NCBI GenBank assembly: GCA_964023275.1
Contig: OZ029915.1
Location: forward strand, 39,333,238 to 39,397,237
Origin: Norana najaformis
Taxonomy: Eukaryota; Annelida; Clitellata; Crassiclitellata; Hormogastridae
Reading direction: 5' to 3'
DNA: 64,000 bases
The notes under the pieces are model-generated. The model made no database searches. It saw only the letters and a program-made list of their open reading frames with translations, and was not told the DNA's origin. A program made the translations under genes and the position numbers. Position 1 is the first letter of the stretch, and the number at the start of each line of letters is the position of its first letter. Below, one piece after another: positions 327 to 33,380 of the stretch.

Positions 327-15704
<15,378 letters not shown>

Positions 15705-17919: not shown

Positions 17920-18178
17920 CATGTGCTTTGTGTTCACAGGTACACACGTTCTGCGTGTTTATATAGGATATTAGCAACCATAGTGCAAGCCCACAACTTT
18001 CATCCTGTTCTACTCTTGTCTACTATCCATACAAAATGAAAATATCCCATCATAAACTAAAACATCCATATACAAGAAAATGTTTTCTTATTACTTGATA
18101 AAGTGGCCAGTGATTTCTGGCATGGAAGCAGCTAACAAATACGATGCATGGCTTCTGTTTTGCCTGCATATGTTTGGG
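15705..18178. other. FAK intronic DNA, mostly without recognised features
   Basis: AT-rich sequence with a weak CORE-SINE-like scrap near 17600-17635 and a (CA)n run at 17889-17919. An open minus frame ending at a CAG/GTATGG junction near 17030 was examined but could not be joined to FAK or recognised. Confidence 0.45.
17889..17919. repeat. (CA)n microsatellite
   Basis: About 15 CA units. Confidence 0.95.
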
Positions 18179-18682
18179 GTCAACCCATTGTAAAGGTGGC
18201 ACCAGTCAAAGGCGGTCAACCCATTGTAAAGGTGGCACCAGTCAAAGGCAGTCAACCCATTGTAAAGGTGGCACCAGTCAAAGGCGGTCAACCCATTGTA
18301 AAGGTGGCACCAGTCAAAGGCGGTCAACCCATTGTAAAGGTGGCACCAGTCAAAGGCGGTCAACCCATTGTAAAGGTGGCACCAGTCAAAGGCGGTCAAC
18401 CCATTGTAAAGGTGGCACCAGTCAAAGGCGGTCAACCCATTGTAAAGGTGGCACCAGTCAAAGGCGGTCAACCCATTGTAAAGGTGGCACCAGTCAAAGG
18501 CGGTCAACCCATTGTAAAGGTGGCACCAGTCAAAGGCGGTCAACCCATTGTAAAGGTGGCACCAGTCAAAGGCGGTCAACCCATTGTAAAGGTGGCACCA
18601 GTCAAAGGTGGTCAACCCATTGTAAAGGTGGCACCAGTCAAAGGTGGTCAACCCATTGTAAAGGTGGCACCAGTCAAAGGCA
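18179..18682. repeat. 36-bp tandem repeat, 14 near-identical copies
   Basis: The unit begins GTCAACCCATTGTAAAGG and ends GTGGCACCAGTCAAAGGCG (18 bp each). Copies start every 36 bp from 18179 to 18647. They differ almost only in the last bases (GCG, GCA or GTG), so the array is young or actively homogenised. Because 36 is a multiple of three, three frames stay open across it. One plus frame reads GQPIVKVAPVKG, another STHCKGGTSQRR, and a minus frame TAFDWCHLYNGL. None has a convincing start, splice context or flank, so it is called a minisatellite in FAK intronic DNA rather than a gene. Confidence 0.95.
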
Positions 18683-19534
18683 GAATACAGAGAATTGTGT
18701 GTTTATGTAGGATCAAAAACATAACAAACCAAAGTTGAAACATATCATAGCAACTGGTGGATCACAGAAACTGATCTTTTCATTTATACTAGGTCATACA
18801 CAATGTTATTATGTGGAGTCTCATACAGCTATCAATATTAAACTTTATTGGCAAATAAAACAATGTTTTATGGACACATATTTTACTAATGGTAATCGAA
18901 ATTCAAATCACGTTCCAAATGGTAGGAAATTAACTCCAAATAAGCCTATAGAAAGGCAGATTATAGTATGTGCAACACTTTTACAATTTAATACACTACT
19001 TGTAACCTGGAGATTGGAGTGTAGTGGTACAATGTGTAGGATGAAAATGGCAAGAAATTCAGCAGAAAGGCATTTTGTGTGTGGACAGTTATGTTATAAT
19101 CAGCAGCGACAACATGCATTTAAAAACCTCTGCATTAACCAGAGAGCCCCTTCATACAAGGTTGCTTGAACACAACAACGTTTTACCCTCAGGCTAACAT
19201 TCTTGGCTTTAATGAGGCAAAGTGGGCCATTGCTCTAAACATGGATAGGAATTGGTTCACCCCAACAACTTCTTCAGTTATCTAGATAACAGCACTCTAG
19301 ATATCACCAATAATCACAACCACACTCTGTCTTGATAGCAGTAAAATCAGCAGTTACGAGCAATGATCAGAATAAAAACCAACAGCGAAAGCAATATTAA
19401 TACTGATCATCATTGATCTTTGTGATCATTAGCATAATCACTAATCATCACTAATCAACAATAATTATGACAACAATGATGTCCACGACGAGGCGCAGGA
19501 GAAGGAGGGAGAGAAGTTGGAGGAGGAGGAAGAA

Positions 19535-20659: not shown

Positions 20660-23312
20660 TTAATTAATTAGAATCTTCTAAAGCGCCAGTGTCTAATGCA
20701 CAAGGCATCAACCCATGGCACATCAAACTTAAGCCGCATTCAGGCAATATCCAGAAGATCAGTCCACTAAGACAGAGAGGCAGCCTACGGCGGAAAAGCC
20801 AATTGAAAAAGATAAGTCTTATCTTGAGAACGAAATGACATAAGAAACTGGGCATAATGCACAGATGCAGGAAGAGAATTCCAAAATTTTGGTCTAGCAA
20901 CCTAAAAACTCTCTTACCAAGAACAGTTCTAGTTTCTGGCACAACAAGAGAAAGGCATTCAGATGACCTGGTTGAATAATGATGAGTTTGAGGAGTGAGG
21001 ACTGATTTTAAATACTGTGATTGGCCATAGTTCAATGTTTTGTAAAATTATAAGCCTCAATTTAAAAGCGAGTTATAGTATTAAAGGCAACAGAAGACCA
21101 GTGCATTTGCTAGAGATATCCTTGAAGGCATAGGAACATATCACCGAATTCTGTGTATGTCACTAATACGCATGTATGATGACTTACAAATTCCATTTAC
21201 ATAATTGGTGAGAAACGCAGTAGAATCAAAAATAATGCCCAAGTTACGAGCAGCAACAACCAACTCCACAAGTGAATTGTCCAGTTTTAAAATTTAAGCC
21301 ATTCAAACTTCTTAATTAAGCTGCTGTGGAGTGCCCAGTATCATAAATTCAGTTTTTGATGGGTTAAGGGGGGGTTTATTAGCTACCATCCAAGACTGCA
21401 CCTCTTCAAAGGCAGTGGATAACAACTGCACAGATGAATGACAAGACAAACTGACAAAAGAAATGTACATTTGAGTATCATCAGCATAGAAGTGTTATAT
21501 CTAAGTGAATGATTGTCTAGTAGTGTATCTAATGGTGCAGTGCATAGTAAAAATAAAAGAGGACCAAGCACAGAATCCTGTGGAACACCACATCTCAACA
21601 AAGCACTAGATGAATAATTACCATCTAAATAAACTGCTTGAGTGCGGAGACTAAGATAAGTACCAAACCAATTTAGGGCAGGACCAGAAACCCCAAACCA
21701 GTGCTGGAGATGATGCAACAGGAGAGAATGATCCATCATATCAAATGCAGCAGATAAGTCAAGAAGAACAAGTGCTGTCACCTTACCCTTAGCCATTGAG
21801 CACATGACGTCATCATGAACAGCAAGAAGTGCAGATTCTGTTGAATGAAACTTAAGATAAGGAGAATGAAAGGGGGATAATAGTGAGTTGGTAAATAAAT
21901 GACTTTGCATATGACTCAAAACTATTCGTTCATGAATGTTAGATACAAAATTCAAAAGTTGAGATTGGTCTGTAATCAGATAGCTCACTTGGGTCAAGAG
22001 AGTGTTTCTTTAGCAGAGGATAAACCATGGCATGAGCAAAAACAGACGGGAAGGAACCATCTTGCAATGACAAATTGAGAATTAATGTAATGGTTAGACC
22101 AAGACCATCGAATCATTCCTTCCACAGTGATGCAAGAATGGCATCAAGGAGACAATGTTTGTTCACAGAATAAAAGTTAAGTGTGCGAACCTCTGCAAGA
22201 GTTGTAGGTTGAAAGTAAGCTAAGACAGGAGGCAAGGAAATCGGATGAAGAAATTTATCTAATGCCGATGAACCAACAAATTTCAACATTATACTACAGA
22301 TTTTGTCTGCAAAATAGGTCAAGAATTTACTGGCAAGCTCCTGACTAGTTGAGCACACAGCAGGAAACAAATTTAATTTCTCCAGATGCAATAACTTATT
22401 TAAGGCCAACCACAAGGTTTTTGGTGATGCCGAACTTTTGGTGCTTAAATTAATTAAATACTCAGATTTAGCAGATGAGACAAGTTTTTTGCACAAGTTT
22501 GCATTGTTGCTTAAACCTAGCGTGGTCTGAGGGAAGACGAGAATGATGCCATCAATTTTCCAGCTGACTTCTGAGCCACTTGGCTTTAGAAATGGTGGAG
22601 TTAAACCAAGGCTGTGGTGTGCACTCTACAGCTCTCTTAGTTTTAAAGTTCTTAGTTCTTAGTTCTTAGCTCAGTTAAAGCAGACTGGAACTGAATAGCC
22701 AGCTCACTAGCTGTTTATGCATGAGAAAACCACAAAAGGGATGCCAAGATATCATGCATCAGCTTATCTAAATCAATTTTATGCCTAGAGCGGAATTTAA
22801 CAGTTTTATAATTTGGAGGTGGTTTAATTAAACAGGAAGTCAAATTTTGAGAAAACTCCAACATGATCTGATGATAGATATGATTCAACAGAAGTGACAG
22901 GATGAAAGGATTTTGAATCAGAATGAGTTATCAGGACATCCAAGGTATGGCTTTAATTACATGTAGGAAAGGTGACTAACTAGTTGTTTCATGGCAAACC
23001 TTTCCAGCATATCAAGAAATGATGAAGAACAATGACCAGCTACATCAAGATAATATCAAAGTCACCCATAATAACTATTTCAGAGGGAGAGGAAATTAAA
23101 TATTCAAGTAGTGACTGGAATTCACTAAGAATATCGGTAAGAGTGATGGTGGACGGAAAATATTTACAAGCAACACCTGTTTGTTGCCAGAAATGAGAAA
23201 TATGTATGTATGTATTTATGTATGTATCTGTGTATGTATTTATGTATGTATGTACCATATGTATGTATGTATGTGTGTGTATTTTGATGTAGGTATGAAC
23301 ATATCTATACAA
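20660..23312 (-). mobile_element. Degenerate LINE (L2/CR1-like), endonuclease to ORF end
   Basis: Minus-strand pieces appear in the correct LINE order. An AP-endonuclease end reads EIVIMGDFDI (near 23050). A linker reads PKTLWLALNKLLHLEK and NKHCLLDAILASLWKE (22113-22496). Reverse transcriptase blocks read STESALLAVHDDV, LVLLDLSAAFD, CGVPQDSVLGPLLFLL and RYNTSMLMI, the last standing where the YADD box should be (21383-21997). The C-terminus reads HYSTRSSECLSLVVPETRTV (20664-21035). Frameshifts, stops and the lost YADD box show it is dead. It sits in FAK intronic DNA. Confidence 0.9.
23198..23285. repeat. (ATGT)n-rich tract
   Basis: Imperfect TATG/TGTA repeats overlapping the 5' remnant of the LINE. 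Confidence 0.85.
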
Positions 23313-28680: not shown

Positions 28681-28795
28681 AACCTTTTTTGCCTATCGAT
28701 TTTGTTTTGACTGAGCGCCTGTGAATAAGCTGGTCCCCGCGGCGAGGCTTTCGTTGGGCGCTGTAGAAATCTTGGAATTACGAATACGATTACGA
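28681..28795 (+). mobile_element. TTACGA-tailed SINE-like repeat, copy 2
   Basis: Same order of blocks as copy 1 (TTGCCTATCGATTTTGTTTT, GAATAAGCTGGTCCC, GTTGGGCGCTGTAGAAATC, tail GAATACGATTACGA). It is preceded by a GAT/GAG-rich simple tract (28620-28680). Confidence 0.82.
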
Positions 28796-29250
28796 AGAAG
28801 GCGATACGAAGCATTCGGCTACATACTTATTATTCAGTTGCTTATTTAAACCAAGCGCTATAAAAAGTGATGATGCAGCCTTTATTAAAGGGTCTCGGGC
28901 AGATTTTCCAAACGAATCTAGCGTGGCAGACGCAGCCAAACTGATGAGACCCGGAAGAGAAGAGGAATTAGGAAGCAACTGTTGGTGATGCTGAGAAAAC
29001 CTCTATCGTTGGCCTCAGACGATCAATCAGCAGCTGACCACAGCTGCTTCTGCTGCTGCTGGTGGTGCTGCTGCTGCTGGTGCTGCAGCAACATCACTTG
29101 GATGCAGCGTCGCTTCCGCGTGATGTATCTGTGCGTTTCGTGTGCTTCCATGCTCCTCTCGTATTCAAGCGGCTGCAGAGGAAGGGGTATTATGCACAGG
29201 GTATTATGCTAAGCTCACACAGGCGCTTTATGGCTCTTAACATATCGGTG
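28796..29250. other. Repeat-derived DNA, no gene recognised
   Basis: Includes a CTGCTG-rich patch (29044-29090) giving a Cys-rich chance frame. No motif was recognised. Confidence 0.4.
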
Positions 29251-29467
29251 TAAGCTCTCCAAGGGGCCCGCCCATACCCTTCTTCCTCTTATCACTCTTT
29301 CCGCTCCAATCCCAAACATTATCCGCCGTAGCAGCCACGCTGCCACCCGAATCCTTTTGCCTATCGATTTTGTTTTGGCTGAGCGCCTGTGAATAAGCTG
29401 GTCCCAGTGAGATGTGGTTTTCGTTGGGCGCTGTATAAATCTCGGAATTACGATTTCGATTACTAAT
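29251..29467 (+). mobile_element. TTACGA-tailed LINE 3' end, copy 3
   Basis: The tail blocks CTTTTGCCTATCGATTTTG, GCGCCTGTGAATAAGCTG and GTTGGGCGCTGTATAAATC, ending near CGATTTCGATTAC, occupy 29348-29467. The CTCTT/TCC-rich lead-in resembles the 3' UTR before copy 4. Confidence 0.72.
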
Positions 29468-29698
29468 CGTGACTGGGTCCCTTTTTTGCGTCGTTGGGGC
29501 CCCTCGGTGTTTACACCGACTACACCGGTGTTAAAAGCTCCTCTGTAAGCTCCCTATCGTTTTAAGATGGATCATGCACGTGCGGATCCAGGATTTGAAA
29601 ATGGGGTGGGGAAAAGTAATGTGGCGTACGTCCATCGTTACCCATCTGAAACCGCCACAGGGTAATCGATTAAGATTTCCTTATAGGCTAATATGTGA

Positions 29699-29726
29699 CG
29701 CCGGCCAAGAAAAGGGACCACTTGTC
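29699..29726. repeat. Left terminal inverted repeat of the transposon
   Basis: Perfect reverse complement of 33293-33320, starting CGCCGGCC and ending CACTTGTC. Similarity stops abruptly inside the element, as expected of a true TIR. Confidence 0.95.
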
Positions 29727-32175
29727 TCAAATGGACTTATCACCAGTTTCTATAAGCTGATACTATAAGGAAGTCAGGGTAAAAGTTTCAGGCTCATTGG
29801 TCCAAAATTCATGCATCTATTTTCATTTTCACTTTCAACATTGTAAAATATCAATTTTCTGCAAATTGCGTTTGAAAATTGACATACACCTAACTTAAAG
29901 ACTGTTTGCATGTTAGTATTTTTATTTACAGATCTAATTCAGTTATACAAAAACTACAGAAACACCAAATTTCAGCCAAATATGAACAAATTTGAACAAA
30001 TTATGGTTAGTTTCTTGAAGCCGAGCAATGTTAATATTTTACAACTGAAAAGACGCTATGCATTTCTAAAACGTTCAGCTACCGGAATCAATAGATTTTA
30101 TTGGAAGTCACACCTAATCATTATTTTCTTGAGCTCTACGTTTAGGGCACATAAATAATCCGTTTTTGTTTTTTCTGTTAATATGCCCAGTCTCCTTACA
30201 AAATCCACAAGTAGGTGGTGCCCGACGAGCCATCACCAAGGATGCTTCTGACAATGTTTGCAAGTTCTCTAAAGTCCCTACAGTTCTTTCATGATCAGCT
30301 GATGTTGTTTGAGTTATGGCATCATCATAGGGCCTAGGGCAAAGAATATCTTGAGCCTCCTTTGTGCAGAATCTGCGAATATTCTGGAAGAGATATTGCT
30401 TCCTATCAGTGGAAAGTCCCAATGGAAGAATTTCTTCTGGTAGATTAGCCAGTGCTTCTTCCTCAGCATCAAACAGTGTGTGCAGAATTCCCTCATCACC
30501 AAGTTCCTTATGGCAGATAACATGACCTGGTATTTGAGTATCAAACTCAAACTGGCAGAAGGTTTTTAAATCTCTGACTTTCTGAATCCTCAGTTTGTCA
30601 TTGAAATATGAATGCCAATTGTTAACAGGTATGAAAACATTGCCTTGCTCATCTCCAGTAAGAATTGCCTTGTTCAATTTTGTTATTGGAGTGCTTCGTT
30701 CAATGCAGTTCTTCAGTTCAGTGAGGGTGCAAACCTTGCTTAATTGAAACTGACGCTTCAGAAGACCAAATGCCCAATCTGGAGAGAATTTTGTGTGTCC
30801 AACAGGAAGGAAAGAATACGTAATATGACTGTGGAATCCTTTAACAATTCTCCATGCCCAGTACGCAATTACAAAGTTATTCTTATTTTGGCCAATGCAA
30901 TTATCAGCAAAAATGCTAAGATCTGTCTCTCCAAGGCCAAACTCTTCCAAATAATGGTTGATATAGGAAACTACAGAGTCCGAACCCTTTCCAGTTGACA
31001 CGCATTCTGGAATGACATAAGTCATCTGCTGGCTCAATGAATCATTCATTATTCCAAACAATCCAACTTTAAATGGGGTCAAGAAGTAAATATCTCCTGG
31101 TTGCTGAGGATCCTGAGGAATATGAATTTGTTGTGCATAATCAAAACCGATCTGCAGCATTTTTTTGAAAGAGCAGGGATTGTTTCTTCCAAGTTCTTTT
31201 GTAGGGTGATCTTTAATGTTCTGTTGAGACGTAAAACACCCTTTGCCTATAATCAGCTCTGGATATGGTCACAGAATCCAAATGACTACTGATTTTAGCG
31301 GTTCGTTTCTTCTTTTCTTCCTCACTCATGTTTGACATGCTGGCAACTGATGTTATTAGCGAGTGACAAGTTCCACACAAATCAGATCTTGGTCTTTGCA
31401 ACATAAGATTTGGCAGTGCTTCCTTCCATATTTTACGGAATGATTTGCATGACGTTGGTCTTCTTTCGGTCAACTTGCAAGCTTCTGCATACTGTCTGTA
31501 CATACCCTGGACACTGAAATGACTAGGCAATAAAATAAGATCCGGTGACCTGAAAGCTGGAACTCGACCTGGAAGAACCAGTCCGTGGTTTTCTCCAAAT
31601 TTAATCAGAAAGTGAACAACCTCAGAACACTGTTCTTTACTCATAACATGATGCTGTTTCTTTCCTGTGTTGCCATGATAAACAGGAGATAATCCAGCTT
31701 CCTTCAGTCTGCGTTTCAATCTCTTGTACCTCTTTTCACCGATATTATACAGGAAAAAGTAGACAGCTTTGCATACACTTAACCCATCAAACCTAAACAC
31801 TGAATGTGTCATACAACGGTGTGTTTTCTTCTTGCGCGTCCGCAGAACATTCTCACCAGTGGCACAGAAAGATCGCAGCTGACCAACGATTAGATCGTTC
31901 AAAGGATTTTGATGTAGCTCGTTGAAATAATCAAGTTCTGCAATCTGCAACTGATGCTCAAAAACCATACTTGCATTAAGCTGTGTCGTACACATGGATT
32001 TGTTGGGACCATGCTGACACTGACATCCTTTTGTCAAAAATGCTTCAATCTTATTTATATCTGGTAATTGGGCATCAAATGCTTCAGCAATGTATGAAGT
32101 TTTCTCTTCATCCCGGAAGACTGGAACAGGATCTGCATCTGGTTCATCTTGCAGCACTTCTTCGGTTGGACTATT

Positions 32176-32658
32176 CTAAGAAACAAAATGAGGAATAAAA
32201 TCAATGCATGAAAAAAGTTAGAAATTCTTTTATAATTGTTGTCTTCATTCATTCATTCATTCATTCAAGGAATCTATATAGCGCCCCTTCAAGGAGGCCT
32301 GCTCAGAGGCCCTCCCAACCCATTCCTCAGAGTAGGCCCCGCAACAGAAAGGGCACGATGCTGCCCGATGACCTACCGTCTTTAATGTAAATGTAAGTGA
32401 TTGAACCGTCTTAAAATTAAAAGAGACTGACAATGGAAATAAAATTTATGTTAGAAGAAATTGGCCTTTAAGTTCAAGGACGGCAACTGGTTAATCTCAG
32501 TGTAGGAGAATTGCGATTTTGATTTGAAGTGCTGTCGATTGATGCGTGATGCTTTATTACAGCGGCGCTATAGAAGTGCTGAGATTTGATTAGATTAGGT
32601 CAGGGTGAACATTTACTTTCTATTAACATGTAGTTGTATGCTAGCTACTAAAATTTAC
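32176..32658 (-). other. Intron of the transposase-like gene
   Basis: A 483-bp intron containing an ATTC-repeat and a TCTATATAGCGCCCC block (32246-32300). The latter looks like a small repeat insertion and also occurs in variant form near 16600 and 23310. Confidence 0.6.
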
Positions 32659-32841
32659 CTCACTGACTTGTGATTCAGCAGCCGTTTCGACCTCAGAATG
32701 CTCATCACAAGATTCTTCACTGTCACAATCTTTCGCTGTAGTGAAATAATCTTGCAACACATTAGAAACTTCCTCTGTAGATAATTTTAAATTCAACAAA
32801 TTCGCAATTTCTAGAAAAGTTTTGTCAGCGTTGACCGCCAT
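32659..32841 (-). CDS. Transposase-like gene, exon 1
   Basis: MAVNADKTFLEIANLL onward, with a Ser/Asp/Glu-rich end. The donor is GAG/GTAAAT. It joins in phase 0 to exon 2 (NSPTEEVLQDEPDADP), which confirms the intron. Confidence 0.82.
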
Positions 32842-33292
32842 TATTTCCCTTTAAACTTTCGCGTAACGGCCACTTTGCGACCTCGGTATATGTTTGCTAA
32901 GAAAATAGTTCCTCGCTTGAAAATTTGTAATTATAAAAGACGCAAGTTTTATCTGTCTATGAAAATTTACCTAATTCCATTTTTTAAAATTATATTTAAC
33001 AGAAATATTCATTAAAGTTAAAATTAATAAATATGTGATTTATGTAAATCCGAAAATACCGAAGTAGATTCAAACGCTTGGCAACATGCTGGGCGACAAG
33101 TGGGCCATTTTTTACCCTGTCTGTACCCATGTCTTTAACTGCAGATTCTGGTTTTAAAATAGCAGGCGCAGTAATACCAGGTATAGTAAAATGAAGCTGA
33201 AATGCAGACGCATTCATTGGATACAAAAACCGAAATTCTATGAATATTCATGTTCTTAGCTAAAACGGCGTTTTCTAGCTCTTCTAGCAAGC

Positions 33293-33320
33293 GACAAGTG
33301 GTCCCTTTTCTTGGCCGGCG
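33293..33320. repeat. Right terminal inverted repeat of the transposon
   Basis: Perfect reverse complement of 29699-29726. The gene starts about 450 bp inside this end, so it is the 5' (promoter) end of the transposase gene. Confidence 0.95.
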
Positions 33321-33380
33321 TAATATATAGGCTATATATATTTCCTTATGAGATTTCCTCTCTGTGTCTGTCTGTCTGTC

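Follow-up and report, generated by a model that had tools for sequence, protein, structure and literature searches.

A young DNA transposon in Norana najaformis, most likely of the Sola superfamily, with a DUF7869 protein as its probable DDD transposase

The element and its gene

The window, which is the whole 64,000-nucleotide stretch of Norana najaformis DNA analysed here, contains a 3.6-kb unit that is bounded by terminal inverted repeats (TIRs) of 29-32 bp and carries between them a single long gene, located on the minus strand and encoding a protein of the DUF7869 ("GQNKN") family (Table 1). The two TIRs pair perfectly over 29 bp (29698-29726 and 33293-33321), so that the original prediction of perfect inverted ends holds as to their perfection, while the 28 bp it gave is one base too short. 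By chance, about 3 × 10^-8 such exact pairs would be expected in a 64-kb sequence of the window's base composition. In most of the other copies read, the full ends are GTGACGCC...GGCGTCAC, that is, the core with three further bases on both sides; the window copy has kept the left GTG and lacks the right CAC. Two 51-bp direct repeats adjoin the transposon on its left (28687-28796 and 29355-29466), each with its second copy about 670 bp away. Elsewhere in the window there is a minisatellite (18091-18710) with units of about 13 residues that are open in frames on both strands, and a minus-strand ORF (21383-22009) that, by eye, looks like a fragment of a non-LTR reverse transcriptase.

The gene can be read as two putative exons separated by a phase 0 intron with GT..AG borders, giving about 747 codons in uninterrupted copies. 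In the window copy a one-base frameshift splits exon 2 into two ORFs, 31213-32175 and 30114-31268, which overlap at 31213-31268, and the gene of this copy is broken. The C-terminal ORF matches the Pfam family PF25273 (DUF7869) with an E value of 1.2e-15 and 58 bits, the curated cut-off being 26. The middle ORF has two matches below cut-off, to an RFX winged-helix model (E 0.0096) and to an ISNCY transposase model (E 0.0036), which are consistent with an N-terminal half that binds DNA. The Cys/His clusters named in the original prediction are present in the protein and may likewise bind DNA; the C-terminal cluster gives a weak C2H2 match below cut-off (E 0.66). Nothing over cut-off was returned by NCBIfam for three bacterial relatives and two window ORFs, or by PHROGs for two bacterial relatives and two window ORFs. 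A phmmer search of the PDB gave no matches, and the single match from a PDB profile search, a vicilin at E 0.9, was taken as chance.

Three aspartates stand out as catalytic candidates in a 12-sequence alignment, and the motifs around them follow the patterns [FW]D[FY][AS]Q, DNCxGQN and GHTKFxPD. The second and third aspartates (D2 and D3) are 41 residues apart in 16 of the 16 proteins in which both motifs were found, of which 10 are from loci in prokaryote records and the other six from host copies that are nearly identical. The first and second (D1 and D2) are 78 residues apart in 12 of 14 proteins, the exceptions being L002 (72) and L006 (82). The D1 search pattern missed L019, L020 and L059, and the D2 pattern missed L055-L059, although L055, L057, L058 and L059 read CDNCSGQNKN at that position. 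Both of the blocks earlier proposed to hold acidic catalytic residues do contain a conserved aspartate (IFADN and SPD), and the one that precedes them, in FDYAQ, had been overlooked. The order of the motifs is that which would be expected for an RNase H-like core.

Table 1. Positions in the window of the transposon's ends, gene and candidate catalytic residues
Feature	Position	Strand	Basis
Left 4-bp target duplication copy, ATAT	29691..29694	+	sequence; ATAT both sides in 16/19 copies
Left TIR, GTG + 29-bp core	29695..29726	+	repeat search, copy comparison
Exon 2 of transposase gene (putative)	30114..32175	-	ORFs, copy comparison
C-terminal Cys/His cluster, CGFCKETGH...C	30147..30209	-	computed from ORF
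DUF7869 (PF25273) match, residues 66-246 of C-terminal ORF	30531..31073	-	Pfam
Candidate catalytic D3, GHTKFSPD, invariant	30777..30779	-	12-sequence alignment
Candidate catalytic D2, ADNCIGQNKN, invariant	30903..30905	-	12-sequence alignment
Candidate catalytic D1, FDYAQ, nearly invariant	31140..31142	-	12-sequence alignment
Putative intron, GTAAAT...TCTTAG	32176..32658	-	sequence reading
Putative exon 1, 61 codons starting at ATG, phase 0 junction with exon 2	32659..32841	-	sequence reading
Right TIR, 29-bp core, outer CAC missing	33293..33321	-	repeat search, copy comparison
Right target duplication copy, ATAT, one base past shortened end	33323..33326	+	by eye

Copies and target sites in the host genome

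The host genome comprises 608 Mb in 17 contigs. Searching it by the TIR, as had been suggested with the original prediction, brought out 57 occurrences of the 29-bp core at up to three mismatches, against none for a reversed control pattern. A DNA search, the counts of which are lower bounds, found at least eight near-full-length copies, the window copy included, on six of the 17 contigs (one each on C3, C4, C6 and C16, two each on C8 and C13), as well as internally deleted ones. Pairwise identity among the eight ranges from 98.84 to 99.81%, and their flanks have only scattered repeats in common. Of the seven near-full-length copies outside the window, six have a main frame of 686-687 codons and one a frame of 639.

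Among the internally deleted copies, those at C3:41210104 and C3:25416748 have the same breakpoints, and two further classes of deletion with common breakpoints were noted (1-657/1403-3627 and 1-1058/1931-3627). As these breakpoints recur in separate copies, it seems that the deleted forms have in turn multiplied. At another locus, L017 (C16:18883852), a stretch of about 80 bp from the right flank is directly repeated to the left of the element, the left end of which is without GT, a pattern that would fit an insertion that was aberrant or local.

Alignment of the copy ends, also suggested earlier, set the target-site duplication (TSD) at 4 bp, mainly ATAT. It was scored in 19 distinct copies that have both ends within one locus, taken from loci L013-L042, among which a copy can be covered by more than one locus; the same tetramer lies on both flanks in 17 of them (ATAT in 16, AGAT in one). 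At L017 the script counted a single G as the left end. The flanks of L016 differ (TTTA/AATT), and the window copy, without its right CAC, was scored as unequal by the script but reads ATAT on both sides by eye, one base further out on the right. A copy split over L037 and L039, outside this count, is flanked by AGTT at either end, provided that its left end is likewise taken to be without GT. Equal tetramers are also frequent in a mismatched-copy control (256/342), because ATAT is palindromic; with a palindromic site dominant, the case for direct duplication rests on non-palindromic sites, namely AGAT in this family and AAAT, AAAT and ATTT in a second host family.

The second family came to light among diverged host loci, five of which (L055-L059) were examined from a longer list of diverged DUF7869 loci. 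In four of the five fetched, the DUF7869 gene lies inside TIRs that begin GTGACCCGCC..., and the tetramers at all four (AAAT, AAAT and ATTT at L055, L057 and L059, ATAT at L058) fit the consensus ANNT; those of L058 and L059 were re-read by eye, the latter assuming one substitution in the right end. At the fifth locus, L056 (C7:2390200-2395200), no gene-flanking TIRs were found in the 5-kb stretch examined. Its ORF (1435-3489 of that stretch) encodes a DUF7869 relative in an open frame of 685 codons, in which the second motif has decayed to AGDCGGKSKSN as against ADNCxGQNKNN. It may be a host gene that arose from a transposase of this kind, or else an old remnant. Gene copies without TIRs had been named in advance as an observation that would count against a transposase, and L056 is in part such a copy, but one whose GQNKN motif has decayed.

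Relatives in bacteria

A degenerate DNA pattern for DNCxGQNKN detected 12 loci among 84,980 prokaryote species genomes. Eleven of these encode a relative, eight of them as proteins of 577-668 residues in one frame, and L004 is the pattern locus where none is encoded; four of four bacterial proteins tested match PF25273. The records that hold bacterial elements are from Desulfocicer, Desulfobacterales, Deltaproteobacteria, Ca. Thiomargarita, Legionellales and Nitrospirales. Inverted repeats of 39-64 nt flank the DUF7869 gene in eight of the ten loci examined (L002 and L004 were left out of this test), those of L003 being only 75% complementary. Flanking inverted repeats were not found at L009, where the gene is N-terminally truncated, or at L011, where it starts at the contig edge, and none flank the gene in the stretches examined of two other bacterial DUF7869 loci, L071 and L074. 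The bacterial elements measure 2.0-3.5 kb, five of the eight being 2.0-2.1 kb, and in the two for which ORFs were listed, L005 and L012, the DUF7869 gene is the only long sense gene.

These IS-like elements resemble the window element in having a homologous protein between TIRs, sites of the form ANNT and an A-rich TIR core at about an equal distance from the end. They differ in that the gene of the eight long relatives is in one frame, that the bacterial sequences in alignment A1 do not show the C-terminal Cys/His cluster, and that their ends start GGGG, GAGG, GGGA or GGCG, compared with GTGAC in the window family. By eye, and counting the flanking T as position 1, the TIRs of the window family and of the second host family have AAAA at positions 17-20, and so do those of L001, L005, L006, L007, L008, L010 and L012; in L003 the AAAA comes one base earlier on the right and is not clean on the left. 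This placement hints at a common binding-site layout.

The sequence A-N-N-T is present at 16 of 16 ends of the eight bacterial elements, compared with a background of 8.7%, and only the A is an independent observation here, because the T was used to place the element end. The tetramers are equal in three of the eight elements (four of nine with a deleted copy) and unequal in five, as against 10 of 56 equal in a mismatched-copy control, which is weak when taken alone. The strongest single result among the bacterial evidence is a natural empty site for L006. When its flanks were joined without the element and one tetramer, the query matched a second Ca. Thiomargarita nelsonii genome at 92% identity over 227 bases without a gap, the tetramer at the empty site differing by one base. 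The gene interrupted by L006 is PqqD-like; that match does not reach across the junction and hence names the target gene without testing the join, which is tested by the empty site. A similar search with the flanks of L007 found no site spanning the junction. At L005 the left flank ends inside an ORF that is integrase-like by eye and the frame across the joined flanks has no natural-looking continuation, for which reason a rearrangement is possible. A further locus of Ca. Thiomargarita nelsonii (L069 1467-1950, G005:C468) holds an internally deleted copy of 484 bp that keeps both TIRs and is flanked by AAAT at either end, a MITE-like element in a bacterium.

The distribution of the bacterial relatives is sporadic. 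In the order of Desulfocicer they occur in 11 of 389 genomes (several matches are short, and five of the genomes were already in the set), in that of Thiomargarita in two of 42, both already in the set, and in a phylum sample searched with the Pfam model in one of 395, namely Desulfocicer itself. That the bacterial set stems from stray eukaryotic DNA is unlikely, because one of the pattern loci belongs to a DSM strain (Desulfocicer vacuolatum DSM 3385). L002 was taken from the MAG of a sponge symbiont and may be DNA of the host. In viral contigs neither the TIR core nor the DNCxGQNKN pattern was found, and protein searches there gave 1 and 22 stretches that matched a pattern, none of them a relative. 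Protein searches in phages and plasmids found no relatives.

Identity and mobility of the element

The unit is a real, recently mobile DNA transposon, with discrete ends, dispersed near-identical copies and 4-bp duplications, and its protein has conserved D/D/D residues and bacterial relatives that are themselves encoded between TIRs. Taken as a whole, the element is best read as a young DNA transposon of the TIR type that most likely belongs to the Sola superfamily, with the DUF7869 protein as its DDD transposase (a probability of about 0.78). That at least some GQNKN proteins are transposases was claimed in the original prediction, and this has been strengthened by the recurrence of gene, TIRs and 4-bp duplications in the second host family and of gene and TIRs in the bacterial elements, one with a natural empty site. 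By this association, which lends strong support, GQNKN/DUF7869 proteins are very probably DDD transposases.

The original Sola abstract of 2009 is said to describe a DDD transposase, 4-bp TSDs and an occurrence in bacteria and metazoans. The same description appears in PMC10741241, where Sola elements are mostly 2-9 kb long with TIRs of 11-1124 bp, ranges that take in the 3.6 kb and 29-32 bp found here. The 4-bp TSDs seen in the window family, in the second host family and at the bacterial empty site agree with this description of Sola (Sola1-3). The DDD transposase of Sola would have its counterpart in three conserved aspartates, with a D2-D3 spacing of 41, that are presumed to be catalytic, and its host range may be matched by the bacterial elements together with the families in a host genome whose size and putative intron point to a eukaryote. 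On the other side, one survey (PMC10294476) reports that, of the molluscs it covered, only bivalves have Sola. Membership in Sola appears probable from general features.

It has to be weighed against this that DUF7869 may represent a DDD transposase superfamily of its own, reaching from bacteria to animals, with ANNT 4-bp duplications and spacings of 78 and 41 residues, and distinct from Sola. The Pfam name, which is without function, does not call the protein a transposase, the other two family collections are silent above cut-off, and no paper naming DUF7869 or PF25273 was found in the paper library searched, where papers containing the string GQNKN were, by title, unrelated. The candidate DDD residues, the 4-bp TSD, the size and the presumed range over bacteria and metazoa nevertheless agree in general with Sola as described in PMC10741241, and the simpler reading is therefore that Pfam left DUF7869 and Sola unconnected. 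A separate superfamily is on these grounds unlikely, and the "superfamily not yet named" of the original prediction is doubtful. It is far less probable still that the DUF7869 gene is a passenger or a host gene caught between TIRs while another protein moves the element. L056, with its 685-codon frame and no TIRs in the 5-kb stretch examined, would fit such a gene, but it has lost the ADN motif. Genes for DUF7869 recur between differing TIRs in both host families and in eight elements from bacteria; no other long gene is present in the window element, nor any other long sense gene in L005 or L012.

Hardly any weight falls on the last alternative, a helper-dependent family with ends recognized by a transposase of a class that makes 8-bp duplications (hAT, P) or uses TTAA (piggyBac, Kolobok). 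At first sight the window copy alone presents an 8-bp near-duplication, AATATGTG/AATATATA, matching at 6 of 8 positions; this candidate was rejected, as comparison with other copies places GTG/CAC inside the element and gives a duplication of 4 bp that is not TTAA. P elements make 8-bp duplications. Those of hAT and Zisupton elements are also 8 bp long (PMC12730594), in contrast to the 4 bp seen here. Kolobok and piggyBac share the 4-bp length but are given as TTAA-specific (PMC9587614), unlike the ATAT, AGAT, AAAT and ATTT of the present elements.

If the element is indeed a Sola-like transposon moved by its DUF7869 protein, the transposase produced from the single two-exon gene would bind the terminal repeats, and three aspartates within a presumed RNase H-like core would cut the element out. 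Insertion would then take place at A-N-N-T sites through a 4-bp stagger, leaving 4-bp duplications, and the route would presumably be cut-and-paste rather than copy-out. Intact copies elsewhere might move the window copy in trans, despite a right end that is three bases short.

Once DUF7869 genes are linked to mobile elements for which ends, target sites and an empty site are defined, these "uncharacterised" genes become probable transposases, and the data suggest a function for PF25273, matched by the window protein and by the bacterial proteins tested. Activity is testable, because the host has several near-identical copies, six of them with an uninterrupted main frame of 686-687 codons, and homologous bacterial and eukaryotic elements with a common ANNT target would suit structural work. 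If DUF7869 is Sola, the gain is mainly one of annotation; if it is not, the family would be a separate superfamily.
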